Shown in pieces: positions 34,252-56,606 of a stretch of 64,000 bases of DNA; the stretch's first letter is position 1; the number at the start of each line of letters is the position of its first letter. A model generated the notes under the pieces. It was not told the DNA's origin, made no database searches, and saw nothing but the letters and a program-made list of their open reading frames with translations. Both the position numbers and the translations under genes were made by a program. This DNA comes from Mesosutterella porci (GTDB lineage Bacteria; Pseudomonadota; Gammaproteobacteria; Burkholderiales; Burkholderiaceae_F), in the NCBI RefSeq assembly GCF_022134585.1, contig NZ_JAKNCT010000009.1, positions 1-64,000 of the forward strand, written 5' to 3'.

Positions 34252-35532
34252 TTACTTCCTGCCGCAGATCTTCTTCACCATGCCCGTGAACATCCGGAAG
34301 CCGACGTCCAGCGCGGGCTCGTTCACGTCGAAGTTGAACTGGTGGTGGCCGGCCTTGCGGTCAGCTCCGGTCACGAAGAACGCGGCCTTGCCGCCGTGCT
34401 CGGTCACGCGCTTGGCCAGCAGCGAGGCGTCCTCGGAGCCTCCGAAGTTGGCTTCGCCCGTGATCTGCTTCACCTCCGGGATCGTGCCCGCCACTTCGCG
34501 CAGCATCTTCACCATCTCGGGGTCGTTCTTCATGTCGCAGGCCGCGCCCATCGTGCGGACGTCGTACTTCACGCCGTAGCTGATCGCGCAGCCTTTGATG
34601 ATGTTCATTGCCTGCTCGCTCATGTAGTCATTGATGGCGGCGGTCTCGCCGCGCACTTCCATCACGAGCTTCGCGTGGGCGGGGATCACGTTGCGTCCGG
34701 TGCCGGCCTGCAGGATGCCCACGTTCACGCGGGTCATGCCGGAGCCGTGGCGCGGAATGCCGAGCAGCTGCATCGTGGCCGCGCAGGCCGCGGCCAGGGC
34801 GTTGCGGCCCGCATTGGGCTCGACGCCGGCGTGGGCGGGCTTGCCGTCGTAGGTGACGTCGTACTTCGTCGTGCACAGGAAGCCCCAGGGGTCGATCACC
34901 ACTTCACCGTACTTCGCGACCATGCCGATGTGCGAGCCGAGGAAATAGTCGACGTCGTCGAGCACGCCCGAGGCGGCCACGGCGTTGGCTCCACGCACGC
35001 CTTCTTCGGCCGGCTGGAAGACGATCTTGATGCGGCCCGTGAGCGAGTCCTTGTTGTCCACGATCCACTTCGCGGTGGTGAGGCCGATCGACATGTGGCA
35101 GTCGTGCCCGCAGGCGTGCATGAAGCCGTTGTGCTTCGAGCGGAAGCCGTCCTTGTTCGGGATGTGGTTCGGATCATCGGTTTCCTGCACGGGGATGCAG
35201 TCGATGTCGAAGCGCATCGCCATCGTGGGGCCGGGACGGCCGGTGTCGAGAACGCCCACGCAGCCCGTGTAGCCCTCGGTCGCCTTCAGGAACTCCTCGG
35301 AGACACCGTGTTCGCGCGCGGCCTGCAATCCGGCCTGCACTTCCTTTTCATCGCGGCCGAGGCAGGCCTCGGGTTTCACGACCTTGGTGCCGAGGAGAAC
35401 CTCGTAGCCCCAGGCCTTCAGCTTGCGGGCGAGGTAGTTCGTCGTTGTGAATTCCGTCCAGCCGGGCTCGGGCCACTGGTGAAGTTCGCGGCGCTGGTCG
35501 ACCAGCTGCTTGTAATACGATGACAAGGCCAT
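34252..35532 (-). CDS. M20-family amidohydrolase/peptidase (AbgA-like)
   Basis: A 426-residue metallohydrolase. Metal-site motifs include MRFDIDCIPV, HACGHDCHMSIGL (about residue 140, His/Asp ligands) and FQPAEEGVRGANA (catalytic Glu). The dimerisation domain has KPAHAGVEPNAG. A late GGSEDASLLAKRV matches the last metal-ligand region. It resembles AbgA and aminoacylase-type M20D enzymes that split N-acyl or aminobenzoyl-glutamate-type amides. I chose ATG 35532 because AGGAG lies seven bases upstream; ATG 35538 overlaps that site. It is transcribed alone. The substrate is not known. Confidence 0.88.
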   Translation of the reverse strand: MALSSYYKQLVDQRRELHQWPEPGWTEFTTTNYLARKLKAWGYEVLLGTKVVKPEACLGRDEKEVQAGLQAAREHGVSEEFLKATEGYTGCVGVLDTGRPGPTMAMRFDIDCIPVQETDDPNHIPNKDGFRSKHNGFMHACGHDCHMSIGLTTAKWIVDNKDSLTGRIKIVFQPAEEGVRGANAVAASGVLDDVDYFLGSHIGMVAKYGEVVIDPWGFLCTTKYDVTYDGKPAHAGVEPNAGRNALAAACAATMQLLGIPRHGSGMTRVNVGILQAGTGRNVIPAHAKLVMEVRGETAAINDYMSEQAMNIIKGCAISYGVKYDVRTMGAACDMKNDPEMVKMLREVAGTIPEVKQITGEANFGGSEDASLLAKRVTEHGGKAAFFVTGADRKAGHHQFNFDVNEPALDVGFRMFTGMVKKICGRK

Positions 35533-35722
35533 TTCCATGCTCCTTTTTTAACGTTCGGGCGCAACGCAATGGCCAGGCGCTTGGGATGGCGCCTGAGACA
35601 TAGGGCTGCGGCCCCGTTGAAATGCCATCTGCATAACGATGAAATTATAATCTCTAGGGAATCGGGCGTACGCTTTTTACGTCGTCCGGGGAAGCCGCTG
35701 AAGGCTTGCTGATACAGGAGGG

Positions 35723-37976: not shown

Positions 37977-39077
37977 TCAGCCCAGATGGTTCAGGACAAA
38001 CTTCACGAAGACCGCCGAGCCCATCGGCAGCAGCGTGTCGTCCATCGTCATGTTGATCTTGTGCAGGCCCGGAGTTACGCCGGTGCCCACCCCGAAGTAG
38101 CCGTTTTTGATGGAGGGCTTCGCGAGCTTGTAGAAGTGGAAGTCCTCGCCGCCGCCCCCACAGCCCGGTGCGAGGCGGTCGGCTCCGGCCGTATCGCGGA
38201 TGCACTGCGCGAGCTCCTCGGTGATATCGGGATCGAGGTTCGCGGCCGGGCAGATGACGTCGTACTTCACATCGACGGTCGCCCCGTAGGCCTCAGCCGT
38301 GTTTTTGAAGATCCGGTTCATCTGCTCGGTGAGCGATTTGACAAGCTCGTTGGTCTGCCCGCGGAAGTCAAAGCACAGGGTGGCGGTCGCGGGCACGACG
38401 TTGAAGGCCCCGTCGTCGGCGCACAGCTGCGTGGGCTTCACGGACCAGACGTTTTCCGGGTTCATGTGGATTTGCGCGACGGCGTTGACGATTGCGGTGG
38501 CGACATAGATCGCGTTCACGCCCAGATGCGGGCGGGCAGCGTGGCTCGATTTTCCGTGAATCGTCACATGCACGTGGCCGGAGGACGTGTGGCACACCGA
38601 GGGGCACAGAGTCCCGGGCTTCAGATCCTGGACGGGACGCACGTGCGCCCCGATGATGATGTCTACGTCGTCAAGGATGCCTTCCTTGATCAGGGCCTGC
38701 GCCCCGGTGATTGGCTCCTCTGCGGGCTGGAAGATGAGCTTCACCTTGCCGCGCCTGATTTTCCCCACGAGGCGGCTTGCCGCCTCGAGCAGCATCGCCA
38801 TGTGGCCGTCGTGCCCGCAGGCGTGGATCGCCACTGTCTTGCCGTTTTGCTGGAAGGGAAGAGCGTCCATGTCCGCGCGCAGCGCGATCACGGGGCCGGG
38901 TGCGCCCGAGTCGATGTATCCCGTGACGCCGTAGGTTTCGCCCACGCGGTGGGCGTCAATGCCGATCTCCTTGAGCCGGCGGATCACGTAGGCGGAAGTG
39001 TTTTTGACGTCCATGCCGATTTCCGCAAGCGGATGCAGCTCGCGGCGCAGCTTCGTTGAATCCAGTATCTGGGCCAT
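37977..39077 (-). CDS. M20-family amidohydrolase/peptidase
   Basis: A 366-residue M20D-type metallohydrolase. Metal and catalytic motifs are LRADMDALPF, HACGHDGHMAMLLEA (about residue 95) and FQPAEEPITGA, with a dimerisation domain containing GKSSHAARPHLGVNA. Near the C-terminus, GCGGGGEDFHFY is the last metal-ligand region. The protein is shorter than the AbgA-like gene at 34252 and only distantly like it. Such enzymes deacylate or hydrolyse amino acid amides. The substrate is unknown. It is followed by pepD on the same strand but is separated from it by a terminator. Confidence 0.88.
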   Translation of the reverse strand: MAQILDSTKLRRELHPLAEIGMDVKNTSAYVIRRLKEIGIDAHRVGETYGVTGYIDSGAPGPVIALRADMDALPFQQNGKTVAIHACGHDGHMAMLLEAASRLVGKIRRGKVKLIFQPAEEPITGAQALIKEGILDDVDIIIGAHVRPVQDLKPGTLCPSVCHTSSGHVHVTIHGKSSHAARPHLGVNAIYVATAIVNAVAQIHMNPENVWSVKPTQLCADDGAFNVVPATATLCFDFRGQTNELVKSLTEQMNRIFKNTAEAYGATVDVKYDVICPAANLDPDITEELAQCIRDTAGADRLAPGCGGGGEDFHFYKLAKPSIKNGYFGVGTGVTPGLHKINMTMDDTLLPMGSAVFVKFVLNHLG

Positions 39078-44879: not shown

Positions 44880-46317
44880 TTAGAGCATCAGGCCTTCGCG
44901 AGATTTTCGCCTGCGACCATGCCGAAGGCGAGGGCGTCCAGAACAGCCACCGTGCCCAGGCGCGAGGCGCCGTGCACGCCGCCCGGGATCTCGCCGCCCG
45001 CATAGAGGCCGGGGATCGGCTTGTGAGTCTTCCGAGGAGATCACCTGCGCCTCCGGTTTGATGAGCTGGCCGCCCATCGTGTGGTGGATCTTCGGAGCCA
45101 CCTCAACGCCGAAGAACGGGGGCTTGGAGATCGTGAGCCCGTTGTTGAACTTGAGGATACGGTGGAAGTCCTTGTCCTCGCCTTCCTTCGCGTACTGGTT
45201 GAAGCGCTTCACCTTGGCGAGGAACGCATCCTTCTTGATGCCGAAGTGATCGGCGATCTCTTCGAGCGTGTTGGCGACGAACACCGTCTTCGCAGCGAGC
45301 GGCGCTTTCACGAACGAGGGGTTGATCGCCTTCACGATCGAGTCGTCGCAGACCGCGATCGGGTAGTTCTTGTCCTTGCTGATCACGTTGAGCTCGGCGT
45401 CGGTCTTGATCTTGCGGCCAGCGTGCTCGTCCATGCAGGCGTGGTTGGTGAAGTTCACCGAGACGCCGAAGCCGTCCTCGTGCGGATTGCAGTAGGGCAG
45501 GAACTGCAGCCAGGAGATCTGCAGCGGGGTTGCGCCGATTTCGAGCGCCTTGAGCAGCACTCCGGCGGTCTCGCCCGGCTGGTTCGTGGAGTCGGTGGAG
45601 GGGACGACGCGCGGATCCTGCACCTGGCGGAACCAGATGTCGCGCGAGAAGCCGCCCGCGGCGGGCATCACGCCCTTGCGGGCCTTGTAGACGCGGCGGT
45701 GGCCGGTCTTATTCTCCACGTCGTCGGAGGCGAGCCTGCGGGTGAACCGATAGCCTTCGCGGCAGACGACGCCCGTGACGCGGCCGTCCTTGTCGAGCAC
45801 GAAGTCGTCGAACTTCGTGCGGGTCTTCATCAGGCAGTTCCTCATCTTCGAGAGCGTCTCGTACATCGGGACGATGCAGCCCGAGCCCGCCTTGATCTCG
45901 TAGGAGCGGGGCACCGAGTGTCCGCCTTCAAAGAGCATCTTGTTCGGGACAGACTCAGCGCCGCAGTCGGTCACGAACTTCACCGTGTCGTTGCCGCGGC
46001 GATAGAGCACGTCGAGCAGCTCCATGTGGTTGATCCCGAGGCCGTCCTTCAGGCCGTCGGCGAAGAACAGTTCGCGGCTGTCCTTGATGCCCTGGGCCTT
46101 CTGGACCGGGTTCACCGGGCAGGCCATGTTGCCGCAGCAGATGGCGGAGTTGCCGCCGAAGACCCCCATCTTCTCGATCATGAGGACCTTGATCCCGGCC
46201 TTGGCGACCTTGTAGGCGCAGGCCATGCCGGCGAAGCCGGAACCCACGACGGTCACGTCGTACTCGCCGTCGAACTTGACGGATTTGCCGTTTTCCGAGG
46301 CGTGCGCGGCGGCCGGA
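44880..46317 (-). pseudogene. Broken FAD-dependent fumarate reductase-type flavoprotein
   Basis: The remaining frame reads as a flavocytochrome-c/fumarate-reductase-type enzyme. It has the FAD site VTVVGSGFAGMACAYKVAKAG, then EKMGVFGGNSAICCGNMA, a substrate-site HHTMGG, and good agreement up to VISSEDS. At about 45027-45032 a one-base loss shifts the frame. The other frame continues the family ending with GGEIPGGVHGASRLGTVAVLD and stops at 44888; it holds the conserved substrate Arg. The 5' end is also gone: codons before AHASENGKS are replaced near 46317 by an ISL3 transposase fragment, removing start and signal peptide. So two lesions inactivate it. A sequencing slip could explain the frameshift, but not the 5' loss. 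Confidence 0.85.
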
Positions 46318-46783
46318 CGATCTGCAGGTCGACAGACAGAAGCAGTTGAACCGTCTGAAGGCCGACAACGAGCTGCTGGCTTCCCTCTACCCGATTGCCG
46401 ATTTAATCCGAAGAATATGGTGCTGCCGTTCGGAGGTTCTGGCTCGTGAGGCATTACAAAAAACAAAAAAACTGCTGGAGGCTGCAGCTGAGAAACATGA
46501 TTTCAGTCCGGCATGGAGATTTGCCAAAATGCTCGGCCGCCGCGCAGAAGGCATTGTCAATGCCGGGAAGTTCAAACGGGGTACCGGCCCCCTTGAAGGA
46601 GCGAACAATGCGATCAAAGTGCTCAAGCGAATGGCATACGGCTTCAGAGACTTTGGGTATTTTGTACTGAAAATCAAGTCAATTTTCCCCGGAAGGAACC
46701 TGTCTCCATGGAGAAGCCTTCCAGACTATGCCGCTGTGTTGAAATCAGGGCTGTGGGTACCAGCCTTTCCCGGTATACCGTGA
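46317..46783 (+). pseudogene. ISL3-family transposase, C-terminal fragment
   Basis: An open frame from about 46317 to TGA 46783 reads VDRQKQLNRLKADNELLASL and ends with the ISL3 signature: GPLEGANNAIKVLKRMAYGF, then YFVLKIKSIFPG. The N-terminal two thirds of a normal ISL3 transposase (about 400 residues) is missing, cut where it meets the flavoprotein relic. The TTG at 46346 is not a real start. 46784-46858 may hold the right end of the element, but no inverted repeat could be matched without its left end. It is a relic, unable to move by itself. Confidence 0.82.
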
Positions 46784-51138: not shown

Positions 51139-51218
51139 GCTGGAAAAGAGGGCGCCGCTGTCCCTACAATGGGCTCAGGTTCTTTTCTTTCATTTCCATG
51201 AAAAAGGAGGGCAGGCCC

Positions 51219-52280
51219 ATGGCGCTTACTTTGAAGGAATGCCGCGAGCGGCTCGACGCGCTCGGGCGCGTCTCGCTGGGCTTTTATCCGACGAAGCTTC
51301 ACCGGCTCGAGCGGCTTTCGCGCGAGCTCGGGGTCGATCTCTGGATCAAGCGCGAGGATCTTTCCGGCGTGAGCCTTTTCGGCGGCAACAAGGTGCGCAA
51401 GCTCCAGTACCTCATGAAGGACGCGATCGAGCAGGGCTGCGACACCGTCTTCACCTACGGGGCGACGCAGTCGAACCACGTGATGCAGACCGCGACCGCC
51501 GCGAGGCGGTGCGGACTGCGGCCCGTGCTCTACCTCGGGGCGATCGTGGAGCCGAAGCCCGGCGACGCGAGGGCGAACTTCCTGCTCGACAAAATCCTCG
51601 GGGCTGAAATCCATGTGCTTCCCTCGCTCGGGCGCTCCACCCGCGAGACGATGGAGGCGAACAGGCCGCTCTTTGACGAGCACATCAGACGGCTTGCGGC
51701 CGAGGGGCATAAGGTCTACGACATTCCGGTCGGGGGCTCGACCCCCCGCGGGGCCGCGGGATTCGCGGAGTGCTTTGTGGAGCTCATGGAGCAGTCGGCG
51801 GCTCTTGCCCTGAAGCCCGACTACCTGTGCCTTGCCACCGGCAGCGGCGGCACGCTTGCGGGCCTCGCGGCCGGGCGGGCGATGACGGGCGCCTCGGACG
51901 TCTCGATCCGCGGCTACACGGTGGGCCGCAAGGATCCCGGCTCCTATCCTGCGGGGATCGCGCGGCTGGCCAGCGACGTGCTCGCCCTGCTGGGGATGCC
52001 GGAAGAGAAGGTGCAGCCCGGCGACTTCACGGTTCGCTTTGATTTCTTCAAGCCCGGCTACGAGCGGCCGAGCTCTGCGGCGAATGCCGACATCAGGTTG
52101 CTCGCACGCACCGAGGGCATCTTCACCGATCCGGTCTACACCGGAAAGGGTTTCCACGGGATGCTCGAGGACATCCGAAGCGGCGCAATCCCGAAGGGCT
52201 CCACCGTGGTCTTCCTGCACACGGGCGGCGCGACGGCGCTCTTTTCCGAGTCCGAGATCCTGGGCGATCTCGCGGACTGA
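51219..52280 (+). CDS. dcyD: D-cysteine desulfhydrase (PLP, DcyD/ACC deaminase family)
   Basis: A 353-residue fold-II PLP enzyme. The PLP Lys lies in GGNKVRKLQYL (residue 58), followed by TYGATQSNHVMQTATAARR with the active-site Ser-Asn region, the phosphate loop ATGSGGTLAGLAAG (about 200) and a late HTGGATALF. The same motifs are shared with ACC deaminase. The enzyme breaks D-cysteine to pyruvate, sulfide and ammonia. Start ATG 51219 sits seven bases after AAGGAGGG; ATG 51198 precedes this site. It is monocistronic, with a strong terminator after. Sulfide production would be of interest in a gut bacterium. Confidence 0.87.
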   Translation: MALTLKECRERLDALGRVSLGFYPTKLHRLERLSRELGVDLWIKREDLSGVSLFGGNKVRKLQYLMKDAIEQGCDTVFTYGATQSNHVMQTATAARRCGLRPVLYLGAIVEPKPGDARANFLLDKILGAEIHVLPSLGRSTRETMEANRPLFDEHIRRLAAEGHKVYDIPVGGSTPRGAAGFAECFVELMEQSAALALKPDYLCLATGSGGTLAGLAAGRAMTGASDVSIRGYTVGRKDPGSYPAGIARLASDVLALLGMPEEKVQPGDFTVRFDFFKPGYERPSSAANADIRLLARTEGIFTDPVYTGKGFHGMLEDIRSGAIPKGSTVVFLHTGGATALFSESEILGDLAD

Positions 52281-52363: not shown

Positions 52364-52399
52364 AAGGCGGCCGAGCGGAATTCCGCTCGGCCGCCTTTT
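52364..52399. terminator. Bidirectional terminator between dcyD and yjiG
   Basis: A perfect palindrome of 16 bases per arm, GGCGGCCGAGCGGAA (52366-52380) and its complement (52381-52395), with TTTT at one end and AA/TT at the other. It serves both the + strand gene and the - strand yjiG. Confidence 0.9.
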
Positions 52400-52455: not shown

Positions 52456-52926
52456 TCAGACGAAGAAGTTCATGAGCCACATGCCGAGGCAGGCCATGAG
52501 AATGGAGTTCACCATCAGCATCGGCCAGTACTTCTTCGGGCAGTCCGTGAGGCCGAGCAGGCGGCCCATGTACTGGATCTGGGAGGCCATCAGAAGCAGC
52601 GCCGGGATCATGATCGTGATGTCATGGGGGGTAAGGGCGCCTTCGGTGGCGAGGCTCGCCGCGACGCCCACGCCCGCGCCGCAGGACAGCCACGTGGCGC
52701 ACAGCACCGTGATCGCCTTCCCCGGCAGGCCGAAAACGGCCATCACGGGTCCGAACGTGTTGCCGATCCACTGCATGACGCCGAAGATGTTCAGCATGTA
52801 GGTGAGCACGAACGCCATCAGCACGTTCGGCAGCAGGTTGTAGAGGCCGAGGTTCAGGCCCTTGCGGCATCCGCCGATGAAGATATCGAACGGATTGTTG
52901 GATTCGACGACAGGTGCGTTACTCAT
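52456..52926 (-). CDS. yjiG: YjiG-family membrane protein (nucleoside-recognition/Gate domain), copy 1
   Basis: A 156-residue inner-membrane protein with about four spans and the Gate-type fold. NPFDIFIGGCRKGLNLGLYNLLPNVLMAFVLTYML, given here only by GGCRKGLNLG and LLPNVLMAFVL, is the conserved start of the family. GPVMAVFGLPGKAITVL and GVGVAASLATEGAL follow. It pairs with the YjiH-type gene whose last codons it overlaps by eight bases. In E. coli yjiG and yjiH adjoin iadA, an isoaspartyl dipeptidase. The pair is probably a transporter with an unknown substrate. Confidence 0.82.
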   Translation of the reverse strand: MSNAPVVESNNPFDIFIGGCRKGLNLGLYNLLPNVLMAFVLTYMLNIFGVMQWIGNTFGPVMAVFGLPGKAITVLCATWLSCGAGVGVAASLATEGALTPHDITIMIPALLLMASQIQYMGRLLGLTDCPKKYWPMLMVNSILMACLGMWLMNFFV

Positions 52927-53611
52927 TTGCGAAATCCTTCCTGTAGACAGTGTTCAAGATCAGGCGGACAAGGAACCCGCCGACGAATTTCAGGCAGAGC
53001 ATGATCACGAGCGGAATCCAGATCGGGACGAGGAAGTAGGCGATGAGGCCGCCCACCACGGTGGTGAGGTAGTTGCTGAGCATGCCCGCACCCGCGTACT
53101 GCCAGGCACACATCACGACCAGGTCCTTCTTGCGGATGAGGCCGTTGTCGAAGAGGCCCTTGGTGAGGCCGGCGCCCGCGTCAGTCGACTGCAGGTCGGT
53201 GATCAGGGCAAGGCCGGTGAGGCCGGGCAGCCCGAGGATCGGCTTAAGCAGCGGCGTGAGCAGGAACTGGCACGCGCGCAGGGCGCCGTAGTGAGCGAGC
53301 ACGTCGATGAGCCCGAGCGCAAGCATCACGCCGGGGATCAGGGTGAGGGAAAACAGGAAGCCGTCGCGGGCGCCGACGCCGCCCGCTCCGCGGAAAGAGC
53401 CCGCGCCGGCGATCTTGCCGAACTTGCCGATGAGGGTCGAGAAGTCAAGGGCCTGCAGCCACTCCCAGCCGACCGGCGCCTTGTGGAAGATGCCCGCAAA
53501 GAGGATGACGGCGAACAGGAATGAAATAAAGCAGCCGATGGTCAGCTTTTTCTCTTTGGGAACCGCAGCAGCCTTTTTCTCTGGCTTCGGTTCGACTTTG
53601 GTTTCAGTCAT
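52919..53611 (-). CDS. yjiH: YjiH-family membrane protein (nucleoside-recognition/Gate domain), copy 1
   Basis: A 230-residue protein with a Lys/Pro/Glu-rich cytoplasmic start (about 1-24) and six or so spans. GDFSTLIGKFGKI-type segment, then a core GLALITDLQSTDAGAGLTKGL (shortened: DLQSTDAGAGLTKGL, about 145) that is matched by LQSTDGGAALTRQL in copy 2, and the ending FVGGFLVRLIL. It overlaps yjiG by eight bases, so the two are made together and likely form a complex. AGGGAG lies seven bases before ATG 53611. A long structured leader precedes it. Function is unknown; related Gate-domain proteins include SpmA/SpmB. Confidence 0.82.
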   Translation of the reverse strand: MTETKVEPKPEKKAAAVPKEKKLTIGCFISFLFAVILFAGIFHKAPVGWEWLQALDFSTLIGKFGKIAGAGSFRGAGGVGARDGFLFSLTLIPGVMLALGLIDVLAHYGALRACQFLLTPLLKPILGLPGLTGLALITDLQSTDAGAGLTKGLFDNGLIRKKDLVVMCAWQYAGAGMLSNYLTTVVGGLIAYFLVPIWIPLVIMLCLKFVGGFLVRLILNTVYRKDFANE

Positions 53612-53706
53612 TAATTTCTCCCTGATTAAGGCGGAGCCTGCGGCCGGATGGCGGAAACCTCCAGGCTGCCGTCCGCAGCAGTGCGTCGCCTCAACAGATA
53701 GATGAG

Positions 53707-53759
53707 AAAAAACCGGAAGGGAGGACAGGAACCCCTCTGATCCGGGCTTTCAGTCCCGG
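53707..53759 (-). promoter_or_regulatory. Candidate attenuator or riboswitch expression platform upstream of yjiH
   Basis: On the - strand, CCGGA (53745-53741) and TCCGG (53717-53713) close a stem (inner part GAGGGG with CCTCCC) followed by TTTTTT (53712-53707), a terminator shape within the leader. An earlier hairpin, CCGGG-ACTGAAAG-CCCGG (53759-53742), uses the same CCGG bases, so the two exclude each other. The terminator lies about 95 bases before the yjiH ATG. This is inference from pairing by eye. GC-rich DNA gives such pairings by chance too. Confidence 0.45.
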
Positions 53760-53869
53760 CGCTGGAAAAAGTCCCAGGCCGGTCACCCCCGGACTGCTTG
53801 ACTACTTCTTTTCAGGGAGCCTTCACAGAACAGGGCACTACCGCCTTACACGGGCAGACGGCGTTGCGA

Positions 53870-53899
53870 AGAATAGTCGAAATGACTTGTTACAGTCAA
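53870..53899 (-). promoter_or_regulatory. Promoter of yjiH-yjiG copy 1
   Basis: TTGACT (-35, 53899-53894) and TATTCT (-10, 53875-53870) are 18 bases apart on the - strand, a good sigma-70 match. Transcription would start near 53863 and give a leader of about 250 bases before yjiH. Confidence 0.6.
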
Positions 53900-53962
53900 G
53901 GCGCAGACCTGCCAAATTTGCAGCAGGCGCAGGCCTGACGCCTGTTACTGATTGTTATGGCA

Positions 53963-54005
53963 CAGAAAAACGCCCGGAGGGCAGGAGGCTGCCGCAGCCG
54001 GGCGC
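53963..54005 (-). terminator. Terminator after the M20 peptidase
   Basis: GCGCCCGG and CCGGGCGT can pair, and the - strand continues TTTTTCT. It lies roughly 65 bases after the peptidase stop. The + strand also ends in TTTTTT, so it may work in both directions. Confidence 0.6.
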
Positions 54006-54070
54006 AGAGTTTTTTGGGGGGCGTTCTTTCCCCGGGCGCAGCCGCCGCGGGGAAAGGGCGCCGGCGCGGG

Positions 54071-55189
54071 TCAGATGAGCGAGTAGAGATTCGACTGCAT
54101 CTTCACCGCGGGCTCTACCGAGCGGAGCGTGAGGAACTCGCGGTCGGTATGCATGTTGTCGCCCGCCGGGCCGCAGCCGTCGCACACCGGCACGCCGAAC
54201 TCCGCAATGTGGTTGCCGTCGGCCGCGCCGCCGGCGTCGACAAAGTGCGCCTCAAAGCCTGCCATTGCGGCGGCTTTCGTGAGAAGCTGGTCGAGTTCCT
54301 TCGCGTTGTCGGAAAGCGGCATCGCGGGAATCCAGAACTCTCGCTTCGTTGTGGCGGTGACGCCCTTCACCCAGGTCTGGGCGGCAAGCTGGGCGATCCG
54401 CTCTCCGACCCGGCGCCCCTCCGCGTCGGAGAGGTAGCGGGTGTCGATGCGCACCATGGCGTGGTCCGGAATGGCGTTGATGATCTTGCCGCCTTCGACC
54501 ACGCCCGGGTTCACGGTGGTGCCGGTCTCGAAGTTGTTGAGCTCGTCGTAGAGCGCCGTGGCAAAGCGCATCATGGCGACCGCCGCGTTCGCGCCATCCT
54601 GAGGGTTGTTGCCAGCGTGGGCTGTGCGGCCGTGGAACTCGACCCTGTAGGTGGCCGAGCCCTTGCGGGAGCGCACGAGCTCGCCGTTCGGACGCGCGGG
54701 CTCGCAGATCAGCACGCGCTTGGCGCGCCGGCCGATCGACACCAGCCAGTCGGTCGAGTGCGTGGAGCCGGTCTCTTCGTCCGGGTTCATCGCCACGGCG
54801 ATGGACAGCCGCTTGATGTCCTCGGGCCTCGCGCTTTTAATCCCGTAGAAAATGGAGAGGATGCCGGCCTTGCAGTCGAGCACGCCCGGACCGTAGGCTT
54901 TTTCAGCGTCGCGGCGGAAGGGGCGGCGCGCGGCCTCGCCCTTCGGGAACACGGTGTCGAGGTGTCCGTTGAGCATGATGTCGTAGGTCTGGGCGCCTGG
55001 CTTGTTGGTCGCGAGCAGCCCCCGGCCCACTTCGGGCCCGAGGTCCACGAGTTCAGTGGAAAAGCCGATGGAGTCGTAGAGCTTCTTCATGTACTGTGCA
55101 GCCTGCGTGACGCCTTCCGGGTTGGAGGTGCCGGCCTCGAAATTGACGAGCTGTTCAAGATCCTTCAGATAGTCTTCGAGCAAAGTCAT
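54071..55189 (-). CDS. M20 peptidase, glutamate carboxypeptidase (CPG2)-like
   Basis: A 372-residue zinc peptidase. LNGHLDTVFPKGEA carries the first metal His-x-Asp (about residue 75). GPGVLDCKAGIL has the bridging Asp, MNPDEETGSTHST the catalytic Glu pair, and GRTAHAGNNPQDGANA the dimerisation His. GPAGDNMHTDREFLTL gives the last metal His. This set matches CPG2 and related M20A carboxypeptidases that release C-terminal glutamate. No signal peptide is seen. ATG 55189 (GAGG nine bases upstream) is preferred to 55225. It lies between two YjiHG pairs on the same strand, so they may share a peptide or folate-like substrate. Confidence 0.9.
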   Translation of the reverse strand: MTLLEDYLKDLEQLVNFEAGTSNPEGVTQAAQYMKKLYDSIGFSTELVDLGPEVGRGLLATNKPGAQTYDIMLNGHLDTVFPKGEAARRPFRRDAEKAYGPGVLDCKAGILSIFYGIKSARPEDIKRLSIAVAMNPDEETGSTHSTDWLVSIGRRAKRVLICEPARPNGELVRSRKGSATYRVEFHGRTAHAGNNPQDGANAAVAMMRFATALYDELNNFETGTTVNPGVVEGGKIINAIPDHAMVRIDTRYLSDAEGRRVGERIAQLAAQTWVKGVTATTKREFWIPAMPLSDNAKELDQLLTKAAAMAGFEAHFVDAGGAADGNHIAEFGVPVCDGCGPAGDNMHTDREFLTLRSVEPAVKMQSNLYSLI

Positions 55190-55312
55190 TGCAGAGATCC
55201 TCAGAAGCCAGACGGTGCCGGACAAGGCCGGGCCGCCGGGCTCAAAAACAACCTAAATGAGAAATAAAACTGATTTGCGATTTATCACCCTCGAGGTGCT
55301 CTCAGCGGGTAC

Positions 55313-55355
55313 GAAAAAAGGCCGATTGAGGTTTTGATCCGCAGCCGGCCTTTTT
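55313..55355. terminator. Terminator after yjiG copy 2
   Basis: AAAAAGGCCG and CGGCCTTTTT pair perfectly around a 21-base loop, giving T runs on both strands. On the - strand it ends the second yjiHG transcript, 22 bases after its stop. The peptidase downstream therefore has its own promoter. Confidence 0.82.
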
Positions 55356-55376
55356 CGCTTTTGTCCGATTCGCGCC

Positions 55377-55868
55377 TTAGGCTGCGAGGACGATGAGCTT
55401 CATCACCCACAGGGAGATCAGGGCGACGATGATCGGGATCGCCATGGTGATCGGGATCATCTTGCCCTCGATGCCGATCACGCCCAGGCAGCGCCCGAGG
55501 TACTGGACCTGGGAGCCCATGAGGAAGATCGCAGGAGCGAGAATGCCCAGATCCGCGCCCACGAGCTTGCCGCCCTCAAAGAGCGCCACGGCGACGCCCA
55601 CGCCGCCGCCCATCGACATCCAGGCGCCGAGCAGCACCATGATCGCTTCGCCCGGCAGCCCGAAGATCGCCATCACCGGTCCGCAGACCTTGCCGACCAG
55701 CGCGAGGATTCCAGTGATGTTGAGCGCCTTGATGATCACGAAGGCCATCAGCACGTTCGGAATCATCGAGTGGGTGGCGATGCCCCAGCCCTGGTAGGCG
55801 CCGCGCACGAAAACGTCGGTGACCATCTCTTTTTTGGCCGGTGCGGCCGCTTTCTTTTCTTCAGTCAT
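55377..55868 (-). CDS. yjiG: YjiG-family membrane protein (nucleoside-recognition/Gate domain), copy 2
   Basis: A 163-residue membrane protein related to copy 1. It shares IPNVLMAFVIIKAL, CGPVMAIFGLPGEAIMVLLGA and SQVQYLGRCLGV with that protein (LPNVLMAFVL, FGPVMAVFGLPGKAITVL, SQIQYMGRLLGL). A Lys/Ala-rich tail of about 20 residues precedes the first span. ATG 55868 has AAGGA eight bases upstream; ATG 55892 would include that site. It follows its YjiH partner by 42 bases. Probably a transport complex of unknown substrate. Confidence 0.82.
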   Translation of the reverse strand: MTEEKKAAAPAKKEMVTDVFVRGAYQGWGIATHSMIPNVLMAFVIIKALNITGILALVGKVCGPVMAIFGLPGEAIMVLLGAWMSMGGGVGVAVALFEGGKLVGADLGILAPAIFLMGSQVQYLGRCLGVIGIEGKMIPITMAIPIIVALISLWVMKLIVLAA

Positions 55869-55910
55869 TTCGAATTCCTTTTCAGCTTTCAAGAAGTACG
55901 GGCAGCAGCA

Positions 55911-56606
55911 TCAGGCCTTGCCGGCCTTGCGGATGAGGAAGAGCCGCATGAGCTGCGCGGCCACCACTTTGCCGAGCAGGATGATGCCAAGCCCGACGCC
56001 AATGGAAACCGGAATGACCGGGTTGCCGTCCGCGCCGGTGAGCGTGTAGAGGATCGAGCCCGAGCCGAGGAAGTTCGTGATCGGGGCGTCGGCGGTGAGC
56101 TGGAAGGCGGCGAAGACGTTCGTCTCCTTTTCCGTGAGCTGGCCGGCGTCCTTCAGCTGCCGGGTGAGGGCCGCGCCGCCGTCGGTGGACTGCAGCGAGC
56201 CGATCAGGGCGAGGCCGGCGGTGCCGGGGATGCCGAGCAGGGGCTTGAGGATCGGGGTGAGGAGGATGCGGGCCGCTTCGAGGGCGCCGTAGTGCTCAAG
56301 CACCGTGATCATCGCGATCGAGAACATCACGGTCGGCACCAGGGTGAGGGCGAAGCAGAAGCCGTCGATCGCGCCCGAGCCGCCCTTGCCGCGGAGATTC
56401 GACATGACGGTGTGCAGCGTTCCGGACTGGTCCATCGTCACGTTGGACACAAGCTTGCCCCAGCCGCCGTTGAGGGTGGTGAAGTCAAAGACGCCCCACC
56501 ATTGGGTCGAGGCGAGAGCTCCGGAGAAGAAGACGCAGGCGAAGATGAGCGCGATGTACGCACCCACGCCCACCTTCTTTTTGGGACTGGTAACGGCATC
56601 AGCCAT
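55911..56606 (-). CDS. yjiH: YjiH-family membrane protein (nucleoside-recognition/Gate domain), copy 2
   Basis: A 231-residue membrane protein, paralogue of copy 1. ALTLVPTVMFSIAMITVLEHYGALEAARILLTPILKPLLGIPGTAGLALIGSLQSTDGG runs through the conserved middle (cited by its parts VLEHYGALEAARILLTPILK and LQSTDGGAALTRQL). Copy 1 has VLAHYGALRACQFLLTPLLK and DLQSTDAGAGLTKGL in the same places. Its start is ATG 56606 with AAAGGAG eight bases upstream. A leader with alternate hairpins precedes it. It diverges from the MerR gene. The ending RKAGKA is cytoplasmic. Confidence 0.82.
   Translation of the reverse strand: MADAVTSPKKKVGVGAYIALIFACVFFSGALASTQWWGVFDFTTLNGGWGKLVSNVTMDQSGTLHTVMSNLRGKGGSGAIDGFCFALTLVPTVMFSIAMITVLEHYGALEAARILLTPILKPLLGIPGTAGLALIGSLQSTDGGAALTRQLKDAGQLTEKETNVFAAFQLTADAPITNFLGSGSILYTLTGADGNPVIPVSIGVGLGIILLGKVVAAQLMRLFLIRKAGKA

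Follow-up and report, generated by a model that had tools for sequence, protein, structure and literature searches.

A conserved YjiH-YjiG-peptidase gene cassette in Mesosutterella porci and its putative role in the uptake of amide-linked peptides

The stretch of DNA analysed here (the window: 64,000 nucleotides of Mesosutterella porci, contig NZ_JAKNCT010000009.1, positions 1 to 64,000) contains two gene pairs encoding YjiH and YjiG membrane proteins and, between them, a gene encoding a metallo-peptidase of family M20, arranged as follows:

55911-56606, minus strand: YjiH2, membrane subunit H of the conserved cassette (231 amino acids)
55377-55892, minus strand: YjiG2, membrane subunit G of the conserved cassette (171 amino acids)
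54071-55189, minus strand: M20 metallo-peptidase (372 amino acids, no signal peptide apparent)
52919-53611, minus strand: YjiH1, subunit H of a second, deeply diverged pair (230 amino acids)
52456-52926, minus strand: YjiG1, subunit G of the second pair (156 amino acids, overlapping YjiH1 by 8 bp)

The open reading frame coordinates place the five genes at the positions, and all on the minus strand, as given in an earlier description made from the letters alone (the sequence-only reading), and the paralogy of the two pairs that it proposed is confirmed by identities of 43% between YjiG1 and YjiG2 and 46% between YjiH1 and YjiH2. Both YjiG proteins passed the equivalog model NF007811/PRK10519 over its full length, with 194.8 bits for YjiG1 and 211.3 bits for YjiG2 (curated cut-off 111 bits). 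The Pfam Gate family (PF07670, cut-off 29.6 bits) was matched by YjiG1 (41.9 bits), YjiG2 (32.3 bits) and YjiH2 (35.4 bits), with YjiH1 just below the cut-off in the protein search (28.6 bits) and at 31.2 bits in a six-frame search. YjiH itself gives a weak match to the YjiG model (E ~1e-9), so the two subunits are homologous half-units. In an alignment of 42 sequences, QSTD, N, Q and K of YjiH and D, N, S, Q, Y and R of YjiG are the polar residues that do not vary, and AlphaFold models of the subunits, each predicted separately, are mainly helical with short broken helices (pLDDT 86 for YjiG2 and 78 for YjiH2). The peptidase belongs to family M20, with 79 bits to PF01546, 76 bits to PF07687 and the ligand set H, D, E, E, H. 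Thus YjiH2, YjiG2 and M20 follow one another on one strand in the order H-G-peptidase, with 187 bp separating YjiG2 from the M20 ATG, whereas YjiHG1 has no peptidase downstream, the M20 gene lying ~460 bp upstream of it behind a terminator-like hairpin.

Whether this arrangement recurs was judged from the neighbourhoods of YjiG in other genomes. The genome of M. porci, a member of the gut-associated Sutterella group, itself holds 24 Peptidase_M20 matches in 2.42 Mb, apparently an expansion, so that a single locus is weak evidence and recurrence across families is decisive. YjiG is a sparse gene, found in only 2 of 369 genomes sampled evenly across the class; this sample being too thin, families were searched singly, and YjiG scored over its cut-off in 40 of 149 Enterobacteriaceae, 56 of 150 Negativicutes, 15 of 101 Pasteurellaceae and 19 of 61 genomes of relatives. 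These whole-genome searches, together with 79 YjiG loci from genome contigs, supplied the loci, whose neighbours were classified by hidden Markov models built from the collected loci themselves. A peptidase was scored as directly downstream when it was encoded no more than 300 bp away and in the same orientation; pair counts are of loci, uncorrected for shared ancestry, and M20A and M20D are working labels for two M20 branches rather than MEROPS assignments.

A metallo-peptidase gene lies directly downstream on the same strand in 111 of 151 distinct YjiHG pairs, with a median gap of 23 bp. When the lineage of YjiHG1 is set aside the proportion rises to 110 of 128 pairs (~86%), and another 8 have a peptidase upstream. 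In the long loci (77 pairs), 49 of 70 peptidase matches fall in the downstream slot versus 21 in the ~1.24 Mb of other flank. The recurring link between YjiH/YjiG and peptidases suggested by the sequence-only reading, and the neighbourhood enrichment by which it proposed to check that link, are therefore both upheld far beyond chance, and we hold with high confidence that the YjiHG transporter and the peptidase are functionally connected.

Three kinds of enzyme occupy the downstream slot. M20A, the kind found in the window, is present in Sutterellaceae, Enterobacterales, Vibrio, Cardiobacteriaceae and Pasteurellaceae; M20D amidohydrolases (239-264 bits to TIGR01891, cut-off 153.75) in Negativicutes and a few Enterobacteriaceae; and IadA, of family M38, in Enterobacteriaceae including E. 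coli K-12, in Negativicutes and in some Sutterellaceae (the IadA of locus L078 scores above the TIGR01975 cut-off). Since the genes flanking these units vary among lineages, conservation is confined to the three genes of the cassette and does not reflect long-range synteny. Where pairs have none of the known partners (Vibrio L110 and L115; Pasteurellaceae L188, L191, L193 and L194; L017 and L177), a look for other peptidase families downstream gave genes that do not resemble one another. In E. coli K-12 the adjacency of yjiGH and iadA, which the sequence-only reading had mentioned, is confirmed by the gene order yjiH-yjiG-iadA (b4330-b4329-b4328). This locus resembles the cassette of the window in order, strand, homologous H and G subunits and a peptidase as third gene, but that peptidase is the isoaspartyl dipeptidase IadA instead of an M20 enzyme, and the M38 and M20 families have unrelated folds.

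The second pair of the window does not belong to this cassette. In a concatenated H+G tree the two pairs belong to separate deep clades: YjiHG2 groups with the M20A- and IadA-linked pairs of Proteobacteria, and YjiHG1 with a Sutterellaceae lineage in which a peptidase lies downstream in 1 of 23 pairs and M20A upstream in 3, the window included. No recurring partner of YjiHG1 was found, its neighbours (DJ-1-like, NhaC and AMP-binding genes) differing by genus. Among genomes of the same genus the two pairs are ~3 kb apart in G000 and G001 alone and ~52-53 kb apart in G002 and G004, so the close spacing is not general within the genus; in Sutterella seckii (L050) both kinds of pair adjoin without an M20 gene between them. 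Because the pairs are of different lineages and far apart in sister species, the layout in which two pairs flank the peptidase is a local arrangement, and the conserved unit is YjiH2-YjiG2-M20 (56606-54071). The view that both pairs and the peptidase make up one unit is accordingly abandoned. In a Sutterella metagenome-assembled genome we also observed a tandem of three YjiHG1 pairs (L044:5915-10444).

Candidate transcription signals around these genes are the following:

55314-55350, minus strand: terminator-like element (hairpin, then T-run) in the gap from YjiG2 to M20 (shuffle z -3.45)
53970-54005, minus strand: terminator-like element (hairpin, then T-run) downstream of M20 (shuffle z only -1.83)
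53870-53899, minus strand: promoter-like hexamers upstream of YjiH1 (9/12 matches, which is chance level)
52364-52397, minus strand: strong intrinsic terminator after YjiG1 (shuffle z -6.83)

As terminator-like hairpins lie between the units, YjiHG1 is probably transcribed apart from M20. Transcription of the five genes as a single operon was rejected, given these hairpins and the distance between the pairs in sister species. A hairpin with T-run occurs at the same place between YjiG and M20, with differing sequence, in most Sutterellaceae loci scanned (besides the window, L012, L018, L027, L078, L080, L082, L083, L102 and L113), and enteric loci mostly have short gaps between YjiG and the peptidase gene. 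Judging from its sequence, the hairpin may cause transporter and peptidase to be made in different amounts.

An indication of what the cassette handles comes from the exchange of its enzymes. On the transporter tree the peptidase labels are strongly clustered, requiring 26 changes versus 61.9 when shuffled. In a carefully built tree of 38 pairs, the IadA-linked pairs of Sutterellaceae nest within the M20A-linked clade, far from the IadA-linked clade of E. coli and Negativicutes, which indicates that the enzyme was swapped behind one transporter lineage. A single origin of the IadA linkage was rejected (p-AU 4e-37), as was the grouping of the Sutterellaceae M20A rows when forced together (p 0.00045, for a group named after the first tree had been seen). 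Both enzymes may also reside at one locus, as HG-M20A-IadA in Parasutterella secunda (L078, L103) and as HG-M20A-DcuC-IadA in L097, and in three Negativicutes (L160, L163, L167) iadA is divergent from HG-M20A. That the two enzymes replace each other and also occur together behind one transporter lineage points to a single class of cargo.

The association of YjiG and IadA extends to whole genomes. Among the relatives, IadA (TIGR01975) is present in exactly those genomes in which YjiG exceeds its cut-off (19 of 61); in Enterobacteriaceae 16 genomes have both, 24 YjiG only, 3 IadA only and 106 neither (p 3e-8), and in Negativicutes the numbers are 34, 22, 6 and 88 (p 4e-13). After removal of the genomes in which the genes are adjacent, Fisher's p is 0.03 for Enterobacteriaceae and 5e-5 for Negativicutes. 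IadA is absent from 24 of the 40 Enterobacteriaceae with YjiHG, which fits a replacement of IadA by M20A or M20D in these genomes.

The M20 enzyme of the window had been described as CPG2-like. In structure this stands, as its nearest solved relative is carboxypeptidase G2 (1cg2, E 1e-33), with which it shares the zinc ligands (H76, D105, E139, E163 and H347) and the catalytic glutamate (E138); in function it does not. The protein misses the model of CPG2-type glutamate carboxypeptidases, PRK06133, with 222 bits versus a cut-off of 349; CPG2 has T-S where the family of the window has an invariant R-K; and the position of CPG2 Arg324 is Ile287 in the window and variable across the family. Arg324 is a residue of the pocket for the substrate C-terminus in CPG2 (PMC6271292). 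On the family score and this pocket residue, a CPG2-type glutamate carboxypeptidase function was ruled out.

The arginines of the enzyme recall instead the N-succinyl-diaminopimelate desuccinylase DapE. Arg175-Lys176, invariant or nearly so, align with R177-R178 of E. coli DapE (the RKG of the window against the RRG of DapE), Arg175 corresponding to E. coli R177 and to Arg178 of HiDapE, and the invariant Arg251 lies in the region of HiDapE Arg258, a conserved arginine of the DapE dimerisation domain. These DapE arginines have been proposed to bind substrate carboxylates (PMC4012986). The enzyme nevertheless differs from DapE in that it reaches 109 bits versus a cut-off of 381 in the best DapE-named model and stands in a transporter context and not in one of lysine synthesis. 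As the beta-aspartyl group is a 2-amino-succinyl group, a DapE-like pocket would, on chemical grounds, suit beta-aspartyl substrates.

Gene content, conserved gene order, enzyme exchange and genome-wide co-occurrence, all directly observed, are most economically read as uptake of a peptide or amide followed by cytosolic hydrolysis. YjiH and YjiG would be Gate-family half-transporters that jointly form a permease, this permease would import small amide-linked compounds, and the cytosolic metallo-peptidase encoded alongside would split them. As an explanation of the data as a whole, we moderately favour a YjiH2-YjiG2-M20 nutrient-uptake cassette that imports amide-linked peptides for cleavage in the cytosol. 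Because IadA fills the slot of M20 behind the same kind of transporter in other lineages, beta-aspartyl (isoaspartyl) dipeptides and their close relatives would be the likeliest cargo; this assignment is plausible and we hold it tentatively. Cleavage would release aspartate for use in amino-acid metabolism or fumarate respiration. YjiHG1, a paralogue from the same transporter family that is probably transcribed separately, would probably carry a different or broader cargo.

Genes for C4-dicarboxylate transport or conversion are found near several cassettes or paralogues of their enzymes: DcuC in L097 and near an M20A paralogue of the M. porci genome itself (L205), symporters of the DctA/GltP type in L077, L079, L105 and L042, and, in L102 (8090-11935), L108 and L090 (12837-16629), a lyase of the fumarase superfamily accompanied by a DASS symporter. 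Such neighbours fit aspartate or fumarate as the product, although genes of this kind are common anyway. The lyase and the DASS symporter are common to HG-M20A loci of a Sutterella and of Enterobacillus tribolii, and L102 and L090 also have a GntR-like regulator, so named from its sequence.

A bolder proposal, which we consider doubtful, is that YjiHG is a two-subunit uptake system for beta-aspartyl dipeptides with interchangeable dipeptidases (IadA, an undescribed M20 isoaspartyl dipeptidase, and M20D) and that Sutterellaceae are among the bacteria that remove beta-aspartylglycine in the gut. Beta-aspartylglycine is a long-standing marker of the germ-free or antibiotic-treated gut.

Several points weigh against uptake of beta-aspartyl peptides as the function. 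N-acyl, gamma-glutamyl and other amides are substrates of the M20 and M20D families as well, and the RKG motif is present in M20 paralogues located away from YjiHG, and is thus no proof of substrate. The genome of M. porci has two IadA genes elsewhere, so that M20 is not required there as a replacement for IadA; the nearer of these is 64% identical to the P. secunda IadA placed behind YjiHG. Shared ancestry inflates the co-occurrence figures for YjiG and IadA, most of all those for the relatives. A fold search of the predicted YjiG and YjiH models against the PDB gave no significant match, so that the case for a transporter comes from Gate-family membership and membrane topology, and literature searches found no transport or enzyme data for any member of the family.

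Of the alternatives, the one that best accounts for the data keeps the same architecture and gives it another amide cargo (N-acyl amino acids, gamma-glutamyl peptides or N-succinyl amino acids) that varies by lineage with the peptidase, leaving isoaspartyl compounds to the IadA-linked pairs only. One slot is indeed common to three enzyme families of differing usual chemistry, the M20D partners pass the amidohydrolase model TIGR01891, a family known for N-acyl amino acids, and the clustering of labels on the transporter tree is what would be expected were cargo to follow clade. However, the exchange and co-residence of M20A and IadA behind close transporters in Sutterellaceae are easiest to explain with a common cargo class, and we consider this alternative possible, if rather unlikely. 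It is improbable that YjiHG supplies metal to the adjoining binuclear hydrolase: FeoB, which transports ferrous iron, is a Gate-family protein, the Gate domain is also found in two longer proteins of the M. porci genome (read as FeoB from their length and paired Gate domains), and M20A, M20D and M38 are all two-metal enzymes, but no invariant His or Cys was found among the 42 aligned YjiH or YjiG sequences, and the partners are solely peptidases or amidohydrolases and not metallo-enzymes at large. Coincidence in a peptidase-rich genome, which would place an M20 gene beside this one locus by chance in a few percent of cases, is very improbable and is refuted for YjiHG2 by the filling of the slot in Enterobacterales, Pasteurellaceae, Vibrio, Cardiobacteriaceae, Sutterellaceae and Negativicutes, although it may still account for the closeness of YjiHG1.

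The proposed uptake cassette has parallels in known systems. Utilisation of p-aminobenzoyl-glutamate (AbgT-AbgA-AbgB) likewise combines a permease with cytosolic M20-type amidohydrolases, encoded next to it, which open the amide after import, but AbgT belongs to another transporter family and AbgA/B are of the M20D kind, unlike the M20 of the window. Paired or fused Gate halves are known from SpmA-SpmB, and the sporulation Gate protein YlbJ (TIGR02871) shows weak similarity to YjiG1 and YjiH2, although at 27 and 20 bits versus a cut-off of 304.65 and with hosts here that do not sporulate. In the open literature, subscription papers and preprints being outside the scope of the search, we found no paper describing a YjiHG-peptidase system or the cargo of YjiHG. 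The proposal thus offers a concrete function for an orphan membrane pair of E. coli K-12 and for an unassigned branch of M20 peptidases, together with a candidate bacterial uptake route for beta-aspartyl dipeptides, and the exchange of unrelated peptidases behind one transporter lineage provides a clean natural experiment for substrate assignment.

Further M20 sites of the same genome lie at 34252-35538 and 37977-39077 of the window and at loci L200-L216, several of them adjoining transporters of the DcuC or NhaC family (L203, L205, L207). The convergent neighbour of YjiG1 (51198-52280) encodes a pyridoxal phosphate enzyme of the D-cysteine desulfhydrase / D-cysteate sulfo-lyase group, with 274 bits versus a CuyA cut-off of 450. 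More distant in the window, a flavocytochrome-c-like FAD protein (44880-46466) has N- and C-terminal stretches unlike its family and, as judged from the sequence, may be the product of a broken gene; it is adjoined on the opposite strand by a transposase-like fragment (46346-46783).

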